Shown here: positions 56,977 through 62,705 of the stretch, piece after piece | Position numbering within the stretch: the stretch's first letter is position 1 | Layout: each line of letters begins with the position of its first letter | Origin: Theionarchaea archaeon | Lineage (GTDB): Archaea; Methanobacteriota_B; Thermococci; Methanofastidiosales; SZ-28-30 | Reading direction: 5' to 3' | Assembly (NCBI GenBank): GCA_018992685.1 | Contig: JACVGT010000011.1 | Location: 1 to 64,000, forward strand | DNA: 64,000 bases | Translations under genes and position numbers: made by a program | Notes under the pieces: generated by a model | The model's input: only the letters and a program-made list of their open reading frames with translations | Database searches by the model: none | What the model was told of the DNA's origin: nothing

Positions 56977-56990
56977 ACATTTATAAATAA
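56977..56990 (+). promoter_or_regulatory. Promoter of the RiPP precursor
   Basis: ACATTTATAAATAA is a near-consensus TATA (with a purine-rich ATCGAA before it as BRE). Transcription would start near 57012, right at the AGGAGGTG ribosome-binding site of the precursor gene (57014-57021). Confidence 0.7.
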
Positions 56991-57028
56991 GAAAGAGAAT
57001 AATAGCAAAACTACAGGAGGTGCGAACC

Positions 57029-57127
57029 ATGAAGTTTAACGTAAGGAAGTTGGAGACCGTCTCAACTACTGTTGCTGCAGCAGATGACGTGGTCCCTTGG
57101 AAAGAAGCCAAGCTGCAGTGCCTGTAA
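57029..57127 (+). CDS. RiPP precursor peptide candidate (32 residues)
   Basis: A short gene with its own TATA box, AGGAGGTG 7 bases before the ATG, and a T-tract after the stop, all signs of a real, strongly expressed small gene. The peptide begins MKFNVRKLETV, has a Ser/Thr/Ala-rich middle and an ADD motif, and ends VVPWKEAKLQCL. Basic/amphipathic N-terminus as leader and a short C-terminal core is the layout of PqqA-like and other single-core RiPPs. The core holds one Trp, two Lys and one Cys (next to last residue), residues often cross-linked by radical SAM enzymes. It is followed by three PqqD-radical SAM-SPASM enzymes and a PqqD-M50 protease. The cluster context makes the assignment good; the modification and cleavage sites are inferred. 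Confidence 0.8.
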   Translation: MKFNVRKLETVSTTVAAADDVVPWKEAKLQCL

Positions 57128-57150
57128 TCTTTCCAAAAGGGATCTAGAAA

Positions 57151-57181
57151 GTTTTCTTTGACTTTTTTGTTTTTTTTCTTT
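57151..57181 (+). terminator. T-tract after the precursor gene
   Basis: Three runs of 4, 6 and 8 Ts lie 24-54 bases after the precursor stop. This should terminate most transcripts, giving much more precursor than enzymes, as usual in RiPP loci. Read-through would feed the enzyme genes. Confidence 0.7.
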
Positions 57182-57210
57182 GCCACATTGATGGTTATCC
57201 GGTGTGAAAA

Positions 57211-58551
57211 ATGCCTTACCTGCGAATAATCAAGACCTCAGTGATCAGAACGATTCCTCTGGGAGTGTACCTATGTGTCCCTCACGGGTTTGCGTCTGAA
57301 GCATACTATCCTGTGATGGAAGTTGACGAATCCATAAAAGAGGTTCTCACCCTCTGTGACGGGACACGAACTCGAGAGGATATCCTCAGTCACCTTGCTG
57401 CAGAAACTGGAGAATCTGTGGAGGAGGTGGCGGAAGGATTTGACCAGTTTGTGGAATACATGGTACAGGAGGGTGTACTGGAATGGAGAGAAGAACCGTC
57501 TCCTCTTGAGCCTCTTTACTTGAAGAATAGACCACTGGGGATTATCATGGAGATAACGTCCGACTGCAACCTGCAGTGCCCAATGTGTTATGCTGATTCA
57601 GGAACTGGGCACTCGTGCGATCTAGCGCTGGATGATGTGACCGCCATTGTTGAGGCATCTAAGAAAATGAGGTCAACGTCTCTCGTTATCACTGGAGGCG
57701 AGCCCCTCCTCCGGAAAGACCTGGTGATCTACATGCTGAAAGAGCTCTCCCCCGTAGAGACAGTGGACGTGGCTCTCTTTACAAATGGTACGCTCGTTAC
57801 CAGTGAATATGCACGAGACCTGTATGATGCAGGGCTAAGGCACGCTATTGTCAGTGTGGACGGACACACAGCAGAACTGAACGACAAAATACGAGGTCAT
57901 GGGGCTTTTGAGAAGACAATTCAAGGTATTCATTATCTCAGAGAACGTGGTATTCAAGTCAATGTTGTAACTACGATTTCTCAGACCAATTATCCATATA
58001 TGAAAGAGATCAGAGAGTTTACCTCCCAAATCGGAGACGGCAGCGGCTTGATCCCTGTTTCTCCTTTTGGAAGAGCTGCCCCGGAAATTCTCTTGACTCC
58101 AGAAGGAGTGTTCAGTGTCATGATGGCAAATCTTCCTCCTGGAGAACTTGAAATCAGTATCCCCCCTCGTGATAGATGCAATGTGGGACAGAGTGTTTAC
58201 ATTAGAGCTAACGGAGACGTCTTTCCCTGTGTGAATATGCAGATCCCTGAATTCAGGATGGGGAATATTCGAGAGGAAGATTTCTGGGAAATGTATCAAT
58301 CAGATCTGGTACGAAACCTCTTGCAACTGACAGTCAAGGACTTTGAGCAGTGCAGAGACTGTGATATTCGCTATTACTGCGGAGGCTCGTGTAGAGGGTT
58401 TGCTTACAAACTGAATGGCTCGTTGTACCTTCCAGACCCCTGGAATTGCGGGGCAAATAAGAAACTGACTGAAGAGATTTTGAAAAATGGTGGAGAGACT
58501 ACCAAGAAAGGACTCCGAGAGCTGCTAAAATCCACCAAGGAGTTACTATGA
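57211..58551 (+). CDS. RiPP radical SAM/SPASM enzyme 1 with N-terminal PqqD-like domain
   Basis: A 446-residue enzyme. Residues about 5-95 are a PqqD-like RiPP recognition element (PVMEVDESIKEVLTLCDGTRT, HLAAETGESVEEVAEGFDQF). The radical SAM domain follows, with the 4Fe-4S CxxxCxxC as CNLQCPMC (Cys119, 123, 126) and the SAM-binding GGEPLLR. The C-terminal SPASM domain has cysteines at about 323, 340, 381, 384, 390, 394 and 413 for auxiliary clusters (CNVGQ, FPCVN, QCRDC, YYCGGSCRG, NCG). It would bind the leader of the precursor encoded 84 bases upstream and modify its core through a 5'-deoxyadenosyl radical. Nearest relatives by domain order are PqqE/MftC-type enzymes. No Shine-Dalgarno is strong before the ATG; the product chemistry is unknown. 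Confidence 0.88.
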   Translation: MPYLRIIKTSVIRTIPLGVYLCVPHGFASEAYYPVMEVDESIKEVLTLCDGTRTREDILSHLAAETGESVEEVAEGFDQFVEYMVQEGVLEWREEPSPLEPLYLKNRPLGIIMEITSDCNLQCPMCYADSGTGHSCDLALDDVTAIVEASKKMRSTSLVITGGEPLLRKDLVIYMLKELSPVETVDVALFTNGTLVTSEYARDLYDAGLRHAIVSVDGHTAELNDKIRGHGAFEKTIQGIHYLRERGIQVNVVTTISQTNYPYMKEIREFTSQIGDGSGLIPVSPFGRAAPEILLTPEGVFSVMMANLPPGELEISIPPRDRCNVGQSVYIRANGDVFPCVNMQIPEFRMGNIREEDFWEMYQSDLVRNLLQLTVKDFEQCRDCDIRYYCGGSCRGFAYKLNGSLYLPDPWNCGANKKLTEEILKNGGETTKKGLRELLKSTKELL

Positions 58552-58579
58552 GGAAGAGATTTTTCATCATACCAGTCTG

Positions 58580-58690
58580 GTGAGAGATGAAGCCATCCGA
58601 GAGAAAGAGCCGAAAATAATAGACCTGTCCCGTTTCTTGGGAGTCCATGGAATTCCAGTGTATATTCCTGACTTTCTTCTTGGAATATAG
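58580..58690 (+). CDS. Possible 36-residue ORF between enzymes 1 and 2
   Basis: The 165-base gap between the first two enzyme genes contains a frame open from 58529 to 58690 with a GTG at 58580. It reads as a plausible amphipathic peptide (VRDEAIREKEPKIIDLSRFL, then PVYIPDFLLGI). It has no ATG and no Shine-Dalgarno. It could be a second small peptide, a remnant of the duplication that made the two enzymes, or chance. Confidence 0.2.
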   Translation: MRDEAIREKEPKIIDLSRFLGVHGIPVYIPDFLLGI

Positions 58691-58716
58691 GCTGGAACAT
58701 GTGCGGAGGTGATGAA

Positions 58717-60063
58717 ATGCAATATCTAAGAGTGACAAAGACACCAATCGTCAGAAGAATGCCGCTGGGAACATATGCATGTTTCCCTTCAGGGTTTCAA
58801 CTTGAATCCTTCTATCCAATAATGGAAATCGACGGATCCATAGAAGAGGTTCTCACCCTCTGTGATGGAACACGAACTCGAGAGGATATCCTCAACCACC
58901 TTGCTGCAGAAAGTGGAGAATCTGTGGAGGAGGTGGCGGAAGGATTTGACCAGTTTGTGGAGTACATGGTACAGGAGGGTGTACTGGAATGGAGAGAAGA
59001 ACCGTCTCTTGTTGAGCCTCTTTACAGAGAGAACAGACCCTTCAGTATCACCATAGACATTACATCAGCGTGCAACCTTCAATGTGACTTCTGTTCGGCT
59101 GATTCAGGGGCCCCACGGGGTGATGATCTGACAATGGAACATATCGACCCTCTTCTTGAGCAGGTGAAAAAGTGCAAACCCACGCCTTTTGCCATAAGCG
59201 GCGGAGAGCCCCTTCTCAAGAAGGAAATGGTACTCCACATTTTGGAAGAACTTGCTTCCATTAGAGAAACTGCTGTGACCATTTTTACTAACGCGACCCT
59301 GGTGAATAGAGATTATGCTCAACAGCTTTATGATGCAGGACTGAGATATGCACGAGTCAGTGTGGACGGGCACACAGCACAGGTGCACGATGCAATACGA
59401 GGAAAGGGAACGTTCCAGAAGACGACTCAGGGAATACAGTATCTGAGAGAGCTTGGCATTCACGTCAATACCGTGTCTGTGATTTCCAAGACGAACTATC
59501 AGTATCTGGGTGAGATCAGACACTTTGTTAATCACATTGCAGACAGCTATGGTCTTGCTGTTGTGCAGGAGTATGGAAGGGGTGCAGAGTCTGGGCACCT
59601 GCTTCTCAGTGAAGAAGAACGGTTCAATGTTAATATGTCCAATCTCAGAACAGAAAACATTCAGACGAATGTCAGCCCTCGAGACAGATGCAACGTAGGA
59701 GAGACCATCTACATCAGAGCCAATGGAGATATCTTTCCGTGCTTCTATCTTCAGTTCCCCGAATTCAGAGTGGGTAATATTAAGGAGAACGATCTCTTTG
59801 AAATCTACGAACACAAGATCATGAAGGACCTGTTGAAAATGACTGTTGCAGATATCGAGGAATGCCGGGAGTGCGAGATCCGGTACTACTGTGGAGGCGC
59901 ATGCAGAGGGTTTGCGTATCTGGAGCACAGCTCAGTTCACGTTCCAGATCCTCTGAACTGTGAAAAGAACAAAACGATCGTTCGCATGATTCTGGAAAAG
60001 GGTGAGGAGAATACGAAGCAACTGCTCAGAGAAGTGTTGGATTCAACTTCAGCACTGGGATAG
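58717..60063 (+). CDS. RiPP radical SAM/SPASM enzyme 2 with N-terminal PqqD-like domain
   Basis: A 448-residue paralogue of enzyme 1. Starting at the ATG 58717 (GGAGGTGAT directly upstream; an ATG at 58699 is poorer), the radical SAM cysteines fall at the same positions 119, 123 and 126 (CNLQCDFC). GGEPLLKK and the full SPASM set (CNVGE, FPCFY, ECREC, YYCGGACRG, NCE) are present. The PqqD-like domain is almost identical to that of enzyme 1, even at DNA level over 180 bases, whereas the catalytic domain differs at many positions (for example SADSGAPRGDDL against YADSGTGHSCDL). So the two likely recognise the same leader but act at different sites or steps. Confidence 0.88.
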   Translation: MQYLRVTKTPIVRRMPLGTYACFPSGFQLESFYPIMEIDGSIEEVLTLCDGTRTREDILNHLAAESGESVEEVAEGFDQFVEYMVQEGVLEWREEPSLVEPLYRENRPFSITIDITSACNLQCDFCSADSGAPRGDDLTMEHIDPLLEQVKKCKPTPFAISGGEPLLKKEMVLHILEELASIRETAVTIFTNATLVNRDYAQQLYDAGLRYARVSVDGHTAQVHDAIRGKGTFQKTTQGIQYLRELGIHVNTVSVISKTNYQYLGEIRHFVNHIADSYGLAVVQEYGRGAESGHLLLSEEERFNVNMSNLRTENIQTNVSPRDRCNVGETIYIRANGDIFPCFYLQFPEFRVGNIKENDLFEIYEHKIMKDLLKMTVADIEECRECEIRYYCGGACRGFAYLEHSSVHVPDPLNCEKNKTIVRMILEKGEENTKQLLREVLDSTSALG

Positions 60064-60105
60064 TTCTCTTTATTGCAGCAGTATCCATGGATCGAAGGGA
60101 GGGAC

Positions 60106-61461
60106 ATGAAGATGGATCATGTGAAGAAGCAATATCCTCGGGCTGTCCACCAGGTTGTCATCAGGCATACACGTGTTGGAGACTTCTTGATGTCAGGTGA
60201 CAGCTTGCTTGAAATGGATGGTCCGTCTCTTGAGGTAGTGAACTTGTGTGACGGTTGTCATACTGTCCAGGACATAGCAGAATGGGCAGCCAGAGAAGCA
60301 GACGAGCCTGTGGAAGAGGCGTATGAAGGGCTGATCCAGTTTCTGGACATGCTTTCAGGAGAAGGTGTCATTGTCTATAAGGATTCTCCAGACCCTTTCA
60401 ACCCTGTCTATTGCTATGATAGGCCGCTCTCTGTGATCTGGGAGATTACGTATGCATGCAATCAGCGGTGCAGGTACTGTATTGCTCAGGCTGGTACCCC
60501 TGATCCTGATGAACTCTCCCCACAGGAAATAGACAGAGTGCTGGACGAGCTGGTGGAACTTGGAATTGGGTTGATCAACATAACAGGAGGAGAGCCCCTA
60601 CTGAAAATGGATACTGCCCTTCACATAGCAAGGAGGGCCTCGGAGAATGGCATTGATCTCGAGCTGTTGACCAATGGAATGTTGATAACTTCCGACGTGG
60701 CTCAGAATATCTATGATGCAGGCATCCGGCATGCTCAGGTCAGTCTGGACTGTGTACGGCCAGAGGTTCATGATAACCAGAGGGGGGTGAAAGGTGCCTG
60801 GAAGAAAACTGTGAGTGGTATCCGAAACTTGAGAGATGCAGGAGTCAATGTCATGGCAGCGGCAGTCATGACCAGTGAAAACTTACAGTACTTTGAAGAG
60901 ACAAAGCAGTTTCTCAGGGAGATAGCTAATGTCGTCAAGATGGGTTCTGTTTTGCCAATGGGGCGGGGGGAGAACAGTATTTTTCTGCTCCCTCCTGAGG
61001 ACTATCTCACCTTTCTTAAATTGAGGAATACTGAAGAAGCCACGCTCACAGACTTCATTTTCTGCAGAGAGAAATGTTCTATAGGTACAACGCCTGTGAT
61101 TTCGCCACGGGGAGATGTGTATCCCTGCATGTTGACGAAATACGATGAACTGAAACTGGGAAATGTGAGGGATACGTCCATACACGCTATTTATGAGAAT
61201 TCTGATTTGCTTCAGGAGCTTTTCGACTGGAATGTGGACAAGGTAGATGCCTGCCATTCTTGTTGGAATCGCTACTACTGTGGAGGAGGGTGCAGGGGGT
61301 GCGCATTCGCATACCACGGGACTATTTATGGAAATGATCCATATCAATGTGCTGCCCGGAAGAAATTCGCTCGAGAGCTTCTTGTACGGGGAGATCCAGA
61401 AACTCGAAAAGCACTGAAACATCTAATCTTTTTAGCTAAGCATGACTCTGGTAGAGGATAA
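60106..61461 (+). CDS. RiPP radical SAM/SPASM enzyme 3 with N-terminal PqqD-like domain
   Basis: A 451-residue, more divergent member. PqqD-like region at about 5-95 (VNLCDGCHTVQDIAEWAARE), radical SAM motif CNQRCRYC (Cys118, 122, 125), ITGGEPLLK, and SPASM cysteines (CSIG, YPCMLT, ACHSC, YYCGGGCRGCAF). The first cysteine of the SPASM part (REKCSIGT) and an extra Cys in GCRGCAF differ from the other two. GGGAGGG supports ATG 60106 or the ATG 60112; a TTG frame opens at 60073. Its end is 2 bases before the protease gene. It probably carries out a distinct step on the same precursor. Confidence 0.87.
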   Translation: MKMDHVKKQYPRAVHQVVIRHTRVGDFLMSGDSLLEMDGPSLEVVNLCDGCHTVQDIAEWAAREADEPVEEAYEGLIQFLDMLSGEGVIVYKDSPDPFNPVYCYDRPLSVIWEITYACNQRCRYCIAQAGTPDPDELSPQEIDRVLDELVELGIGLINITGGEPLLKMDTALHIARRASENGIDLELLTNGMLITSDVAQNIYDAGIRHAQVSLDCVRPEVHDNQRGVKGAWKKTVSGIRNLRDAGVNVMAAAVMTSENLQYFEETKQFLREIANVVKMGSVLPMGRGENSIFLLPPEDYLTFLKLRNTEEATLTDFIFCREKCSIGTTPVISPRGDVYPCMLTKYDELKLGNVRDTSIHAIYENSDLLQELFDWNVDKVDACHSCWNRYYCGGGCRGCAFAYHGTIYGNDPYQCAARKKFARELLVRGDPETRKALKHLIFLAKHDSGRG

Positions 61462-61463
61462 CC

Positions 61464-62705
61464 ATGGCTGATTATGATATAACGGATGAGAGTGTAGTCA
61501 AATTCCATGACTTATTCAGAGGTGAAGAGGACGAATCCATCACCGTAGGAAGGCAGGATATCGGGAAGTATGTCAGTCTCCCCAGAGATGCTGTGGAGGT
61601 CATCGATCTCCTGGATTCAGGACAGAAGGTTGGGGAAGTCAAAAGAGTCCTGAAGGACAAATATGGAGAAGACGTGGAAATCGAAGAGTTCATTGAAGAC
61701 ATGATTAAGAACGAAATGGTGAGGTCAATAGATGGATTCGAGATGGTCACGACGTCAAAACTACAAAAAGACCTTTTCAGTAGAGTAACTGCTCGCCATG
61801 TGGGGTGGATGTTCTCGAAGGTAGCATGGGTCATGTATATTGGCATGGCTATCTCATGTCTCATCATTTTTGCCCTTATTCCTGATTATATTCCATCTCC
61901 ACGTGATTATTTCTTCCATCCGTTGTATTCTGTGGCTGTTGGCTTCATGTTTTTCCTTGGATGGATTTTTGTGGCTATTCACGAACTGGCGCATTTGTTT
62001 GCGGCAAAATCTGTGGGAATTGAAGGGAATTTCAGTTTGAGCAATCGGTTGATCTTCATCGTGGCGCAGACAAACCTGGGCAATATCTGGACCATCCCGC
62101 GCAGAAGACGATTTGTCATCTATCTTGCCGGCATGGCGTGGGATTCAACATTGGTATTCATCTGTCTAGTACTGCTCTTCTTGTCTGATCATGGAGTGAT
62201 AACGCTCTCAGTCCTCTTGTACAAGTTCGTGAAAGCAGTGATTTTTGCCAAGGTGTGGACAATAATCTGGCAGTTTAGATTCAACATGCAGACCGATATC
62301 TACTACTCCATTGCCAACTACTTCAGGTGCCGAAATTTATTGGGCGATGCTCAGACCTACATAAAGAATTACAGTTCCAGATTCTATTCCCGAATAAAAG
62401 AGGCCGACATGAGCGGCATACCGGGAGATGAAATGAGAGTAATCAAGTGGTATGCTCTTCTCTACTTCGTTGGCACATCCATAACATTGGCCAGCTACTT
62501 TCTGAGAAATTTGCCCCTTGTCCTGCTCCAGATAATGAAAGCATTTGATGGACTCGTGATAGGCTACTCAGCAAGCCATGCAGATTTCACTGACGCAGTG
62601 GTGCTCATAGTCTTGAATGCCTTCAGATACGGACTCTTAGGATTCGTTATTTTGAGACCAAGATGGAATTGGCTGAAGGAGCGGTTTGCGGGTGCAAGAG
62701 CTTGA
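61464..62705 (+). CDS. PqqD-like domain fused to M50-type membrane metalloprotease
   Basis: A 413-residue membrane protein. Residues about 20-95 form a PqqD-like recognition domain (SLPRDAVEVIDLLDSGQKV, KDKYGEDVEIEEFIEDMIKN). Then come about seven transmembrane helices with the zinc motif HELAH (His173, Glu174, His177) in AIHELAHLFAAKSVGIEG and a third ligand region NMQTDIYYSIANYF (Asp278). This is the pattern of the peptide-associated M50 (site-2-type) proteases found in RiPP clusters, sometimes called YydH-like. It should recognise the same leader, cleave it in or near the membrane, and may release or export the mature product. The ATG is 2 bases after the enzyme 3 stop, so it belongs to the operon. 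Confidence 0.85.
   Translation: MADYDITDESVVKFHDLFRGEEDESITVGRQDIGKYVSLPRDAVEVIDLLDSGQKVGEVKRVLKDKYGEDVEIEEFIEDMIKNEMVRSIDGFEMVTTSKLQKDLFSRVTARHVGWMFSKVAWVMYIGMAISCLIIFALIPDYIPSPRDYFFHPLYSVAVGFMFFLGWIFVAIHELAHLFAAKSVGIEGNFSLSNRLIFIVAQTNLGNIWTIPRRRRFVIYLAGMAWDSTLVFICLVLLFLSDHGVITLSVLLYKFVKAVIFAKVWTIIWQFRFNMQTDIYYSIANYFRCRNLLGDAQTYIKNYSSRFYSRIKEADMSGIPGDEMRVIKWYALLYFVGTSITLASYFLRNLPLVLLQIMKAFDGLVIGYSASHADFTDAVVLIVLNAFRYGLLGFVILRPRWNWLKERFAGARA

Follow-up and report, generated by a model that had tools for sequence, protein, structure and literature searches.

Radical S-adenosylmethionine (SAM) pathways for ribosomally synthesized and post-translationally modified peptides (RiPPs) have been predicted in archaea, yet few archaeal RiPP products have been identified (PMC12144867). 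In other RiPP systems, the M50 proteases EpeP, TglG, and TmoG take part in processing (PMC10885120). The epipeptide locus of Bacillus subtilis (yydFGHIJ, or epeXEPAB) has a small precursor, a radical SAM enzyme, and a membrane protease that matures or exports the peptide (PMC7026026; EpeP is an M50 protease, PMC10885120). A locus with comparable components lies in the first 64 kb of a contig (C3) of the 3.03-Mb genome of a Theionarchaea archaeon (JACVGT010000011.1, assembly GCA_018992685.1; this stretch of 64,000 nucleotides is hereafter the window). The epipeptide locus has one modifying enzyme and an ABC (ATP-binding cassette) immunity transporter, and no PqqD-like domain of its protease is reported in the descriptions cited here. 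Compared to it, the archaeal locus has three SPASM enzymes with fused PqqD domains (here A, B, and C) and a different core. Its sequence very probably encodes a RiPP pathway. This reading, which the original prediction had proposed, is supported by a conserved precursor and by PqqD-like domains in the enzymes.

The precursor peptide and its homologues

Read along positions 56980-62705, a TATA box, a GGAGGTG, a 32-codon open reading frame (ORF), and a T-tract are followed by four co-directional genes (Table 1), and the promoter, Shine-Dalgarno sequence, ORF, T-tract, and genes originally predicted were all confirmed in the sequence. The window peptide consists of a leader (MKFNVRKLETVSTT), a spacer (VAAADDVV), and a core (PWKEAKLQCL). 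A default tblastn search with this peptide found a second copy on contig C19 of the same genome (E 6e-10), and a search with it also found a third copy on contig C7. A profile of these three peptides found two copies (E 1e-19 and 7e-13) in the genome of a sister species, the Theionarchaea metagenome-assembled genome SZ_28-30 (the sister genome). The homologous peptides are MKFNVKKVESISTTAVAPAAKNPWKETKMQCL (C19), MSIAVRKLEKKKTTAFTDNVWKESKMVCL (C7), and MKFNVKKVETVSTTAMAIVDDAGGPWMESKNQCL and MKFNVKKVESVSTTAVAPAAKNPWKETKAQCL (sister genome). That the small ORF should be conserved had been set beforehand as a check on the prediction, and the four homologues, two from this genome and two from the sister genome, bear it out.

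All five precursors are located directly upstream of a gene for a homologous PqqD-radical SAM enzyme, each with an AT-rich TATA-like box at a similar distance on its 5' side, a GGAGGTG, and a T-tract. Furthermore, when 115 genomes of the phylum were searched with the DNA pattern WKExK..CL-stop, matches fell at the three loci of this genome and nowhere else; a reversed control pattern gave none. Because the precursor recurs 5' of homologous enzymes four more times and the DNA pattern is specific, the pairing of precursor and enzyme is not due to chance.

Between the C19 precursor and its sister-genome orthologue (G001b), 12 of the 15 nucleotide differences fall at third positions, with a dN (nonsynonymous divergence) of 0.046 and a dS (synonymous divergence) of 1.01, which indicates that the precursor is under purifying selection. 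The core follows the consensus W-[KM]-E-[AST]-K-x-[QV]-C-L-stop, in which the second position is Met in one sister-genome precursor; W, E, K, and the C-terminal CL are invariant in all five cores, each of which contains one Cys. The archaeal leader is kept as V-[RK]-K-[LV]-E...TT, and selection spans MKFNV(K/R)K(L/V)E..STT. Thus, comparison of the five peptides and the synonymous excess show that leader and core are held while the spacer between them varies. No precursor family of NCBIfam was matched.

Modifying enzymes, protease, and history of the locus

The PqqD domain (PF05402) exceeds its Pfam cut-off of 23.4 in enzymes A, B, and C (29.5, 26.0, and 30.6, respectively), and the Radical_SAM and SPASM domains exceed theirs in all three. 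The CxxxCxxC motif and seven auxiliary-cluster cysteines are present in A, B, and C; all eight homologues have the cysteines. Pfam and the cysteine alignment therefore agree with what had been described from the sequence, namely three enzymes with CxxxCxxC and SPASM cysteines and one membrane protein with HELAH. The solved RiPP-modifying structures nearest by sequence are those of the thioether-forming maturases SkfB (6efn) and CteB (5wgg), and enzyme B matches SkfB with a phmmer E of 5.5e-16. The catalytic domain of B is closest to that of the sister-genome enzyme adjoining precursor a (59.5%), and in the tree enzyme C forms a separate clade with the C7 enzyme and the C-type enzymes of the sister genome. 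Each of the two enzyme clades occurs alone beside a near-identical core elsewhere (C19 and C7). A role in defence was set aside: PADLOC gave only generic viperin-like radical SAM matches, and the enzymes also carry SPASM and PqqD domains.

The recognition domains of A and B have a history of their own. Third codon positions are identical at 58 of 63 sites in codons 38-100 and at 168 of 383 elsewhere (P = 6e-14), and fourfold sites at 26 of 27 in the PqqD tract and at 29 of 85 elsewhere (P = 3e-09), while the catalytic domains are 52% identical. The catalytic-domain tree places B with its counterpart from the sister genome (support 0.70), whereas the tree of the PqqD tract joins A and B (support 0.94). 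The two sister-genome enzymes of the A/B type share a similar tract (20 of 23 third positions, P = 3e-04), which is short because the contig ends. Because the PqqD tracts are near-identical while the catalytic domains diverge, the simplest reading of these sequences is that gene conversion homogenised the leader-binding part of A and B. This pattern is as expected if both enzymes read one leader, and we infer that conversion was retained because A and B must do so. Homogenised recognition domains of this kind would be a natural record of enzymes held to one substrate. The recognition domains originally described as "private" are thus not fully so in A and B, where they are near-identical.

In the fourth protein, H173, E174, H177, and D278 are invariant across seven archaeal and bacterial protease homologues. 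Its N-terminus aligns with genuine PqqD domains of this genome with an hhalign probability of 92% (E 5e-07); together with the Pfam matches of A, B, and C, this upholds the PqqD-like N-terminal domains that had been predicted for all four proteins. Among the 115 genomes of the phylum, the protease is present only in this genome and the sister genome. A scan of genome contigs with the protease profile returned the sister species only; it used two exact peptide patterns, misses plasmid-type homologues, and says little on absence elsewhere. A scan of viral contigs returned no protease homologue.

Table 1. Features of the RiPP locus and their positions in the window
Feature	Position	Strand	Basis
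TATA-type promoter element TTTATAAATA	56980..56989	+	Read directly
Shine-Dalgarno GGAGGTG of the precursor gene	57016..57022	+	Same GGAGGTG before all five precursors
Precursor gene, 32 aa, MKFNVRKLETVSTTVAAADDVVPWKEAKLQCL	57029..57127 (ATG at 57029)	+	Homologues; purifying selection; leader motif shared with bacterial ThiF-M50 loci
T-rich tract between precursor and enzyme genes	57163..57181	+	T-tracts in the same place after all five precursors
Enzyme A, PqqD-radical SAM-SPASM, 446 aa	57211..58551	+	Pfam; CNLQCPMC and seven auxiliary Cys
PqqD tract of A (codons 38-100), homogenised with B	57322..57510	+	Third-position identity
Enzyme B, PqqD-radical SAM-SPASM, 448 aa	58717..60063	+	Pfam; phmmer to SkfB
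PqqD tract of B, homogenised with A	58828..59016	+	Third-position identity
Enzyme C, PqqD-radical SAM-SPASM, 451 aa	60106..61461	+	Pfam; tree
PqqD-like domain and M50-type membrane metalloprotease, 413 aa	61464..62705	+	Pfam; hhalign; full-length archaeal and bacterial homologues
Zinc motif HELAH (H173, E174, H177)	61980..61994	+	Invariant in seven homologues
Third zinc-ligand candidate D278	62295-62297	+	Invariant in seven homologues

A 36-residue ORF (MRDEAIREKEPKIIDLSRFLGVHGIPVYIPDFLLGI; window 58580-58690) between the genes for A and B has no homologue in the compared loci. Rfam and tRNA scans gave no matches.

The other archaeal loci are simpler. At C19 and at C7, a precursor is accompanied by one PqqD-radical SAM enzyme and a protease, and these genes indicate that the basic module is precursor, single enzyme, and protease. 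Because these two loci have one enzyme each, the A/B/C set is a local expansion; three maturases on one precursor, the feature originally singled out as unusual, holds for the window but is not the basic design. On one contig of the sister genome, enzymes of B type and C type lie between precursors a and b, and precursor b is followed by the start of a C19-type enzyme; another contig begins inside a C19-type enzyme and continues with a protease and an MFS (major facilitator superfamily) transporter. At a site syntenic with the window locus (from a KaiC-like gene to thiW), its contig C8 retains a protease remnant (L017 9159-9354) with 55% identity over 65 residues and an in-frame stop, between thiW and a CHAT-like gene. 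Because only this remnant is left, the gene arrangement of the window was found intact just once, and an ancestral locus at this site has probably decayed.

Further genes of related kinds were observed in this genome. Directly after the C7 locus, on the minus strand (L015, 1786-5401), lie a gene for a SPASM radical SAM protein and genes for a protease pair resembling TldD/TldE (Pfam PmbA_TldD); beyond these, the opposite strand encodes a flavoprotein and an ABC-2 permease. With 17 matches to the PqqD domain, the genome shows signs of an unusually large predicted RiPP repertoire. On contig C1 (L020, start 7080, minus strand), a 113-residue ORF ending in CVCACVSCACACACVSCACACASGGGF lies upstream of another PqqD-radical SAM gene and looks like a different, Cys-rich RiPP precursor. 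A TldD/TldE-like pair, a 30-residue ORF (MKYVEPEVFEFAEESITDKCLAMWATFTPT, with AGGAGGTG), and a PqqD-radical SAM fusion on contig C17 (L018, 5686-10670) form another possible RiPP locus. Past the window, at about 84.2-89.5 kb of C3 (L022, 12211-17455), a 46-residue ORF with CC motifs precedes genes that, from a reading of the sequence, encode two radical SAM-like proteins, one PqqD-like protein, and one similar to a B12-binding radical SAM enzyme; this last protein has a relative adjoining precursor a in the sister genome (L045, 7407-9185).

The leader motif and bacterial ThiF-M50 loci

Full-length relatives of the protease were found on bacterial plasmid records of Priestia, Nonomuraea, Streptomyces, Nocardia, Actinacidiphila, and Macrococcus (24-31% identity, E down to 8e-46). 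Most of them adjoin a gene for a ThiF-family adenylyltransferase and have no radical SAM genes annotated nearby. In Priestia, three identical tandem ORFs (MKKIVVRKLATVTVPQLRPGT) upstream of the ThiF gene resemble the archaeal leader. These tandem precursor genes (L058, 4063-4339) and two different ones in one Streptomyces (L064, 6307-6507) stand outside the listed annotation.

A leader profile of 12 positions was built from the five archaeal leaders only, to avoid circularity, and applied to 605 small ORFs with a ribosome-binding site in 11 bacterial loci and to 1149 control ORFs. The top nine of the 605 (scores 21-32, nine loci) all adjoin a ThiF or M50 gene on the same strand; examples are LQIRKLEKVETT and VKIRKLEKIETT (both Nonomuraea), ISIRRLDKKETT (Nocardia), and IGFRRLERVETT (Actinacidiphila), and IKVRKVEDVKAT, found in three related Streptomyces plasmids, is the same peptide and counts as one observation. 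The best of the controls, which are mostly archaeal DNA and unmatched in base composition to the bacterial loci, scored 19.0, below all nine. The other ORFs of the bacterial loci are a better control, and among them one unrelated ORF (21.0) came within reach of the top nine. The Priestia peptide scored 16.2, under the best control, and no small ORF of the Macrococcus locus matched the profile. The motif of this leader group, [VIF]-R-[KR]-[LV]-[DE]-x-[VIK]-x-T-T, is present on the archaeal small peptide. In addition, the N-termini of the ThiF proteins align with the recognition domains of the archaeal radical SAM enzymes (hhalign 91%).

The bacterial and archaeal loci thus have in common a homologous PqqD-M50 protease, the same leader motif, and a modifying enzyme whose N-terminus resembles a RiPP recognition element. 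They differ in the modifier, since no ThiF gene was recognised at the archaeal loci and radical SAM enzymes stand there instead; moreover, the bacterial cores are unrelated to the archaeal core. On sequence grounds, the archaeal locus is a predicted new RiPP variant in which radical SAM enzymes replace ThiF. On balance we favour a single RiPP group across Archaea, Actinomycetota, and Bacillota, united by the motif R-K-L-E-x-V-x-T-T and by a PqqD-M50 protease that reads the leader, with an exchangeable modifier (ThiF, or one to three radical SAM-SPASM enzymes in Theionarchaea) and recognition domains kept in step by gene conversion. If the leader is indeed shared, protease and leader would form a portable release module serving two unrelated chemistries in two domains of life, and would provide a new motif for precursors overlooked by gene callers. 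No paper joining M50, ThiF, and this leader was found in a search of literature open without subscription, and the main text of a 2025 survey of recognition motifs does not name the motif.

Proposed pathway and comparison with known systems

As a whole, the locus is with high probability best explained as a RiPP biosynthesis operon that would work as follows. The T-tract, probably a partial transcription terminator, would stop most transcripts before the enzyme genes and the precursor would be made in excess. Its leader (FNVRKLETVSTT) would dock onto the PqqD domains, both those of the three enzymes and that of the protease. The three enzymes would then use 5'-deoxyadenosyl radical chemistry on the core of about 10 residues, most likely installing cross-links through the invariant Cys (thioether) and/or Trp/Lys. 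A thioether is our first guess because the nearest solved RiPP enzymes, SkfB and CteB, form thioethers and the one Cys is invariant; as the main modification, it has not quite an even chance. A C-C link between Trp and Lys like that of streptide or tryglysin, which the W-K-E start of the core would allow, is a rather unlikely main modification. Bound to the same leader, the M50 protease would cut the modified peptide at the membrane and yield a short C-terminal product, probably outside the cell, as M50 proteases do in epipeptides and pearlins (PMC7026026, PMC10885120); we consider it likely that this protease performs the final cleavage.

Several observations weigh against this explanation. 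No curated NCBIfam RiPP family cut-off was reached among the families listed: the sactipeptide maturase StsB scored 137.9 bits against a cut-off of 625, and WgkB, a top match for A and B, 131-141 against 650. The protease matches M50 (PF02163) with 20.2 bits, under the cut-off of 27.2 that its full-length Nocardia homologue passes (34.1). With its N-terminal 100 residues alone, PqqD is the best Pfam match in four of four archaeal homologues but stays below the cut-off (E 0.0013-0.02). The AlphaFold model of the protease, built from two sequences, is unusable (predicted local distance difference test, pLDDT, 37); that of enzyme B is mediocre (pLDDT 57). Foldseek returned SkfB, CteB, SuiB, and anSME, adding little beyond the sequence result. 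The window locus has no exporter or immunity gene next to it, and only two genomes, both of a single genus, were found to carry the archaeal system.

Other explanations account for parts of these data. The PqqD-radical SAM-SPASM architecture is also that of the pyrroloquinoline quinone (PQQ) and mycofactocin pathways, and the product might be a peptide-derived redox cofactor of this type, used intracellularly and not secreted. The mycofactocin maturase MftC is the best NCBIfam match of enzyme C, and the C-terminal residues are among the most conserved of the core. However, MftC scored 155.7 bits against a cut-off of 265, and no mycofactocin or PQQ family cut-off was reached. The final step would fall to a membrane protease, neither a dehydrogenase nor another obvious cofactor user was recognised beside the locus, and several diverging copies per genome together with loss at one sister site suit an accessory product better; a cofactor is therefore improbable. 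A scaffold peptide of the pearlin type is quite improbable as well; in this case the enzymes would alter the Cys-Leu at the C-terminus, and the M50 protease would then cut off one modified amino acid or a dipeptide. This reading would fit the invariant CL and the action of TglG and TmoG, which take modified amino acids off the C-termini of scaffold peptides (PMC10885120), but the W, E, and K nearer the start of the core are just as invariant, and none of the genes next to the locus was recognised as encoding an enzyme that extends peptides C-terminally by amino acids.

It is very improbable that the 32-residue ORF is a regulatory leader peptide (attenuator) of downstream enzymes that act on something else, although a short ORF and a T-tract ahead of structural genes would suit one. 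Purifying selection extends over leader residues and not over a run of one codon, the tandem small ORFs at bacterial loci with the same leader (three in Priestia, two in one Streptomyces) suit precursors rather than attenuators, and the enzymes carry RiPP recognition domains.

Compared to described systems, the RiPP operon proposed here shares individual parts with several. SkfB and CteB are sactisynthases and, like A, B, and C, radical SAM enzymes with auxiliary Fe-S clusters, and the single Cys of the archaeal core could donate a thioether; unlike sactipeptide systems, the locus reaches no sactipeptide NCBIfam cut-off, and its core has one Cys plus invariant W, E, and K. SuiB (streptide) and WgkB (tryglysin) are SPASM enzymes that join Lys and Trp (PMC5491770, PMC8092268), which the W-K-E start of the archaeal core recalls, but this core lacks the WGK motif of tryglysin, for which WgkC is a separate recognition protein. 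The pearlin proteases TglG and TmoG, likened here by description only, are membrane M50 proteases acting at peptide C-termini (PMC10885120), but pearlin systems use different modifying enzymes. We could not match the combination of this leader, a PqqD-M50 protease, and a threefold SPASM set to any described class. The locus thus offers a concrete, small archaeal system with one precursor, a short core, and a tractable set of enzymes.

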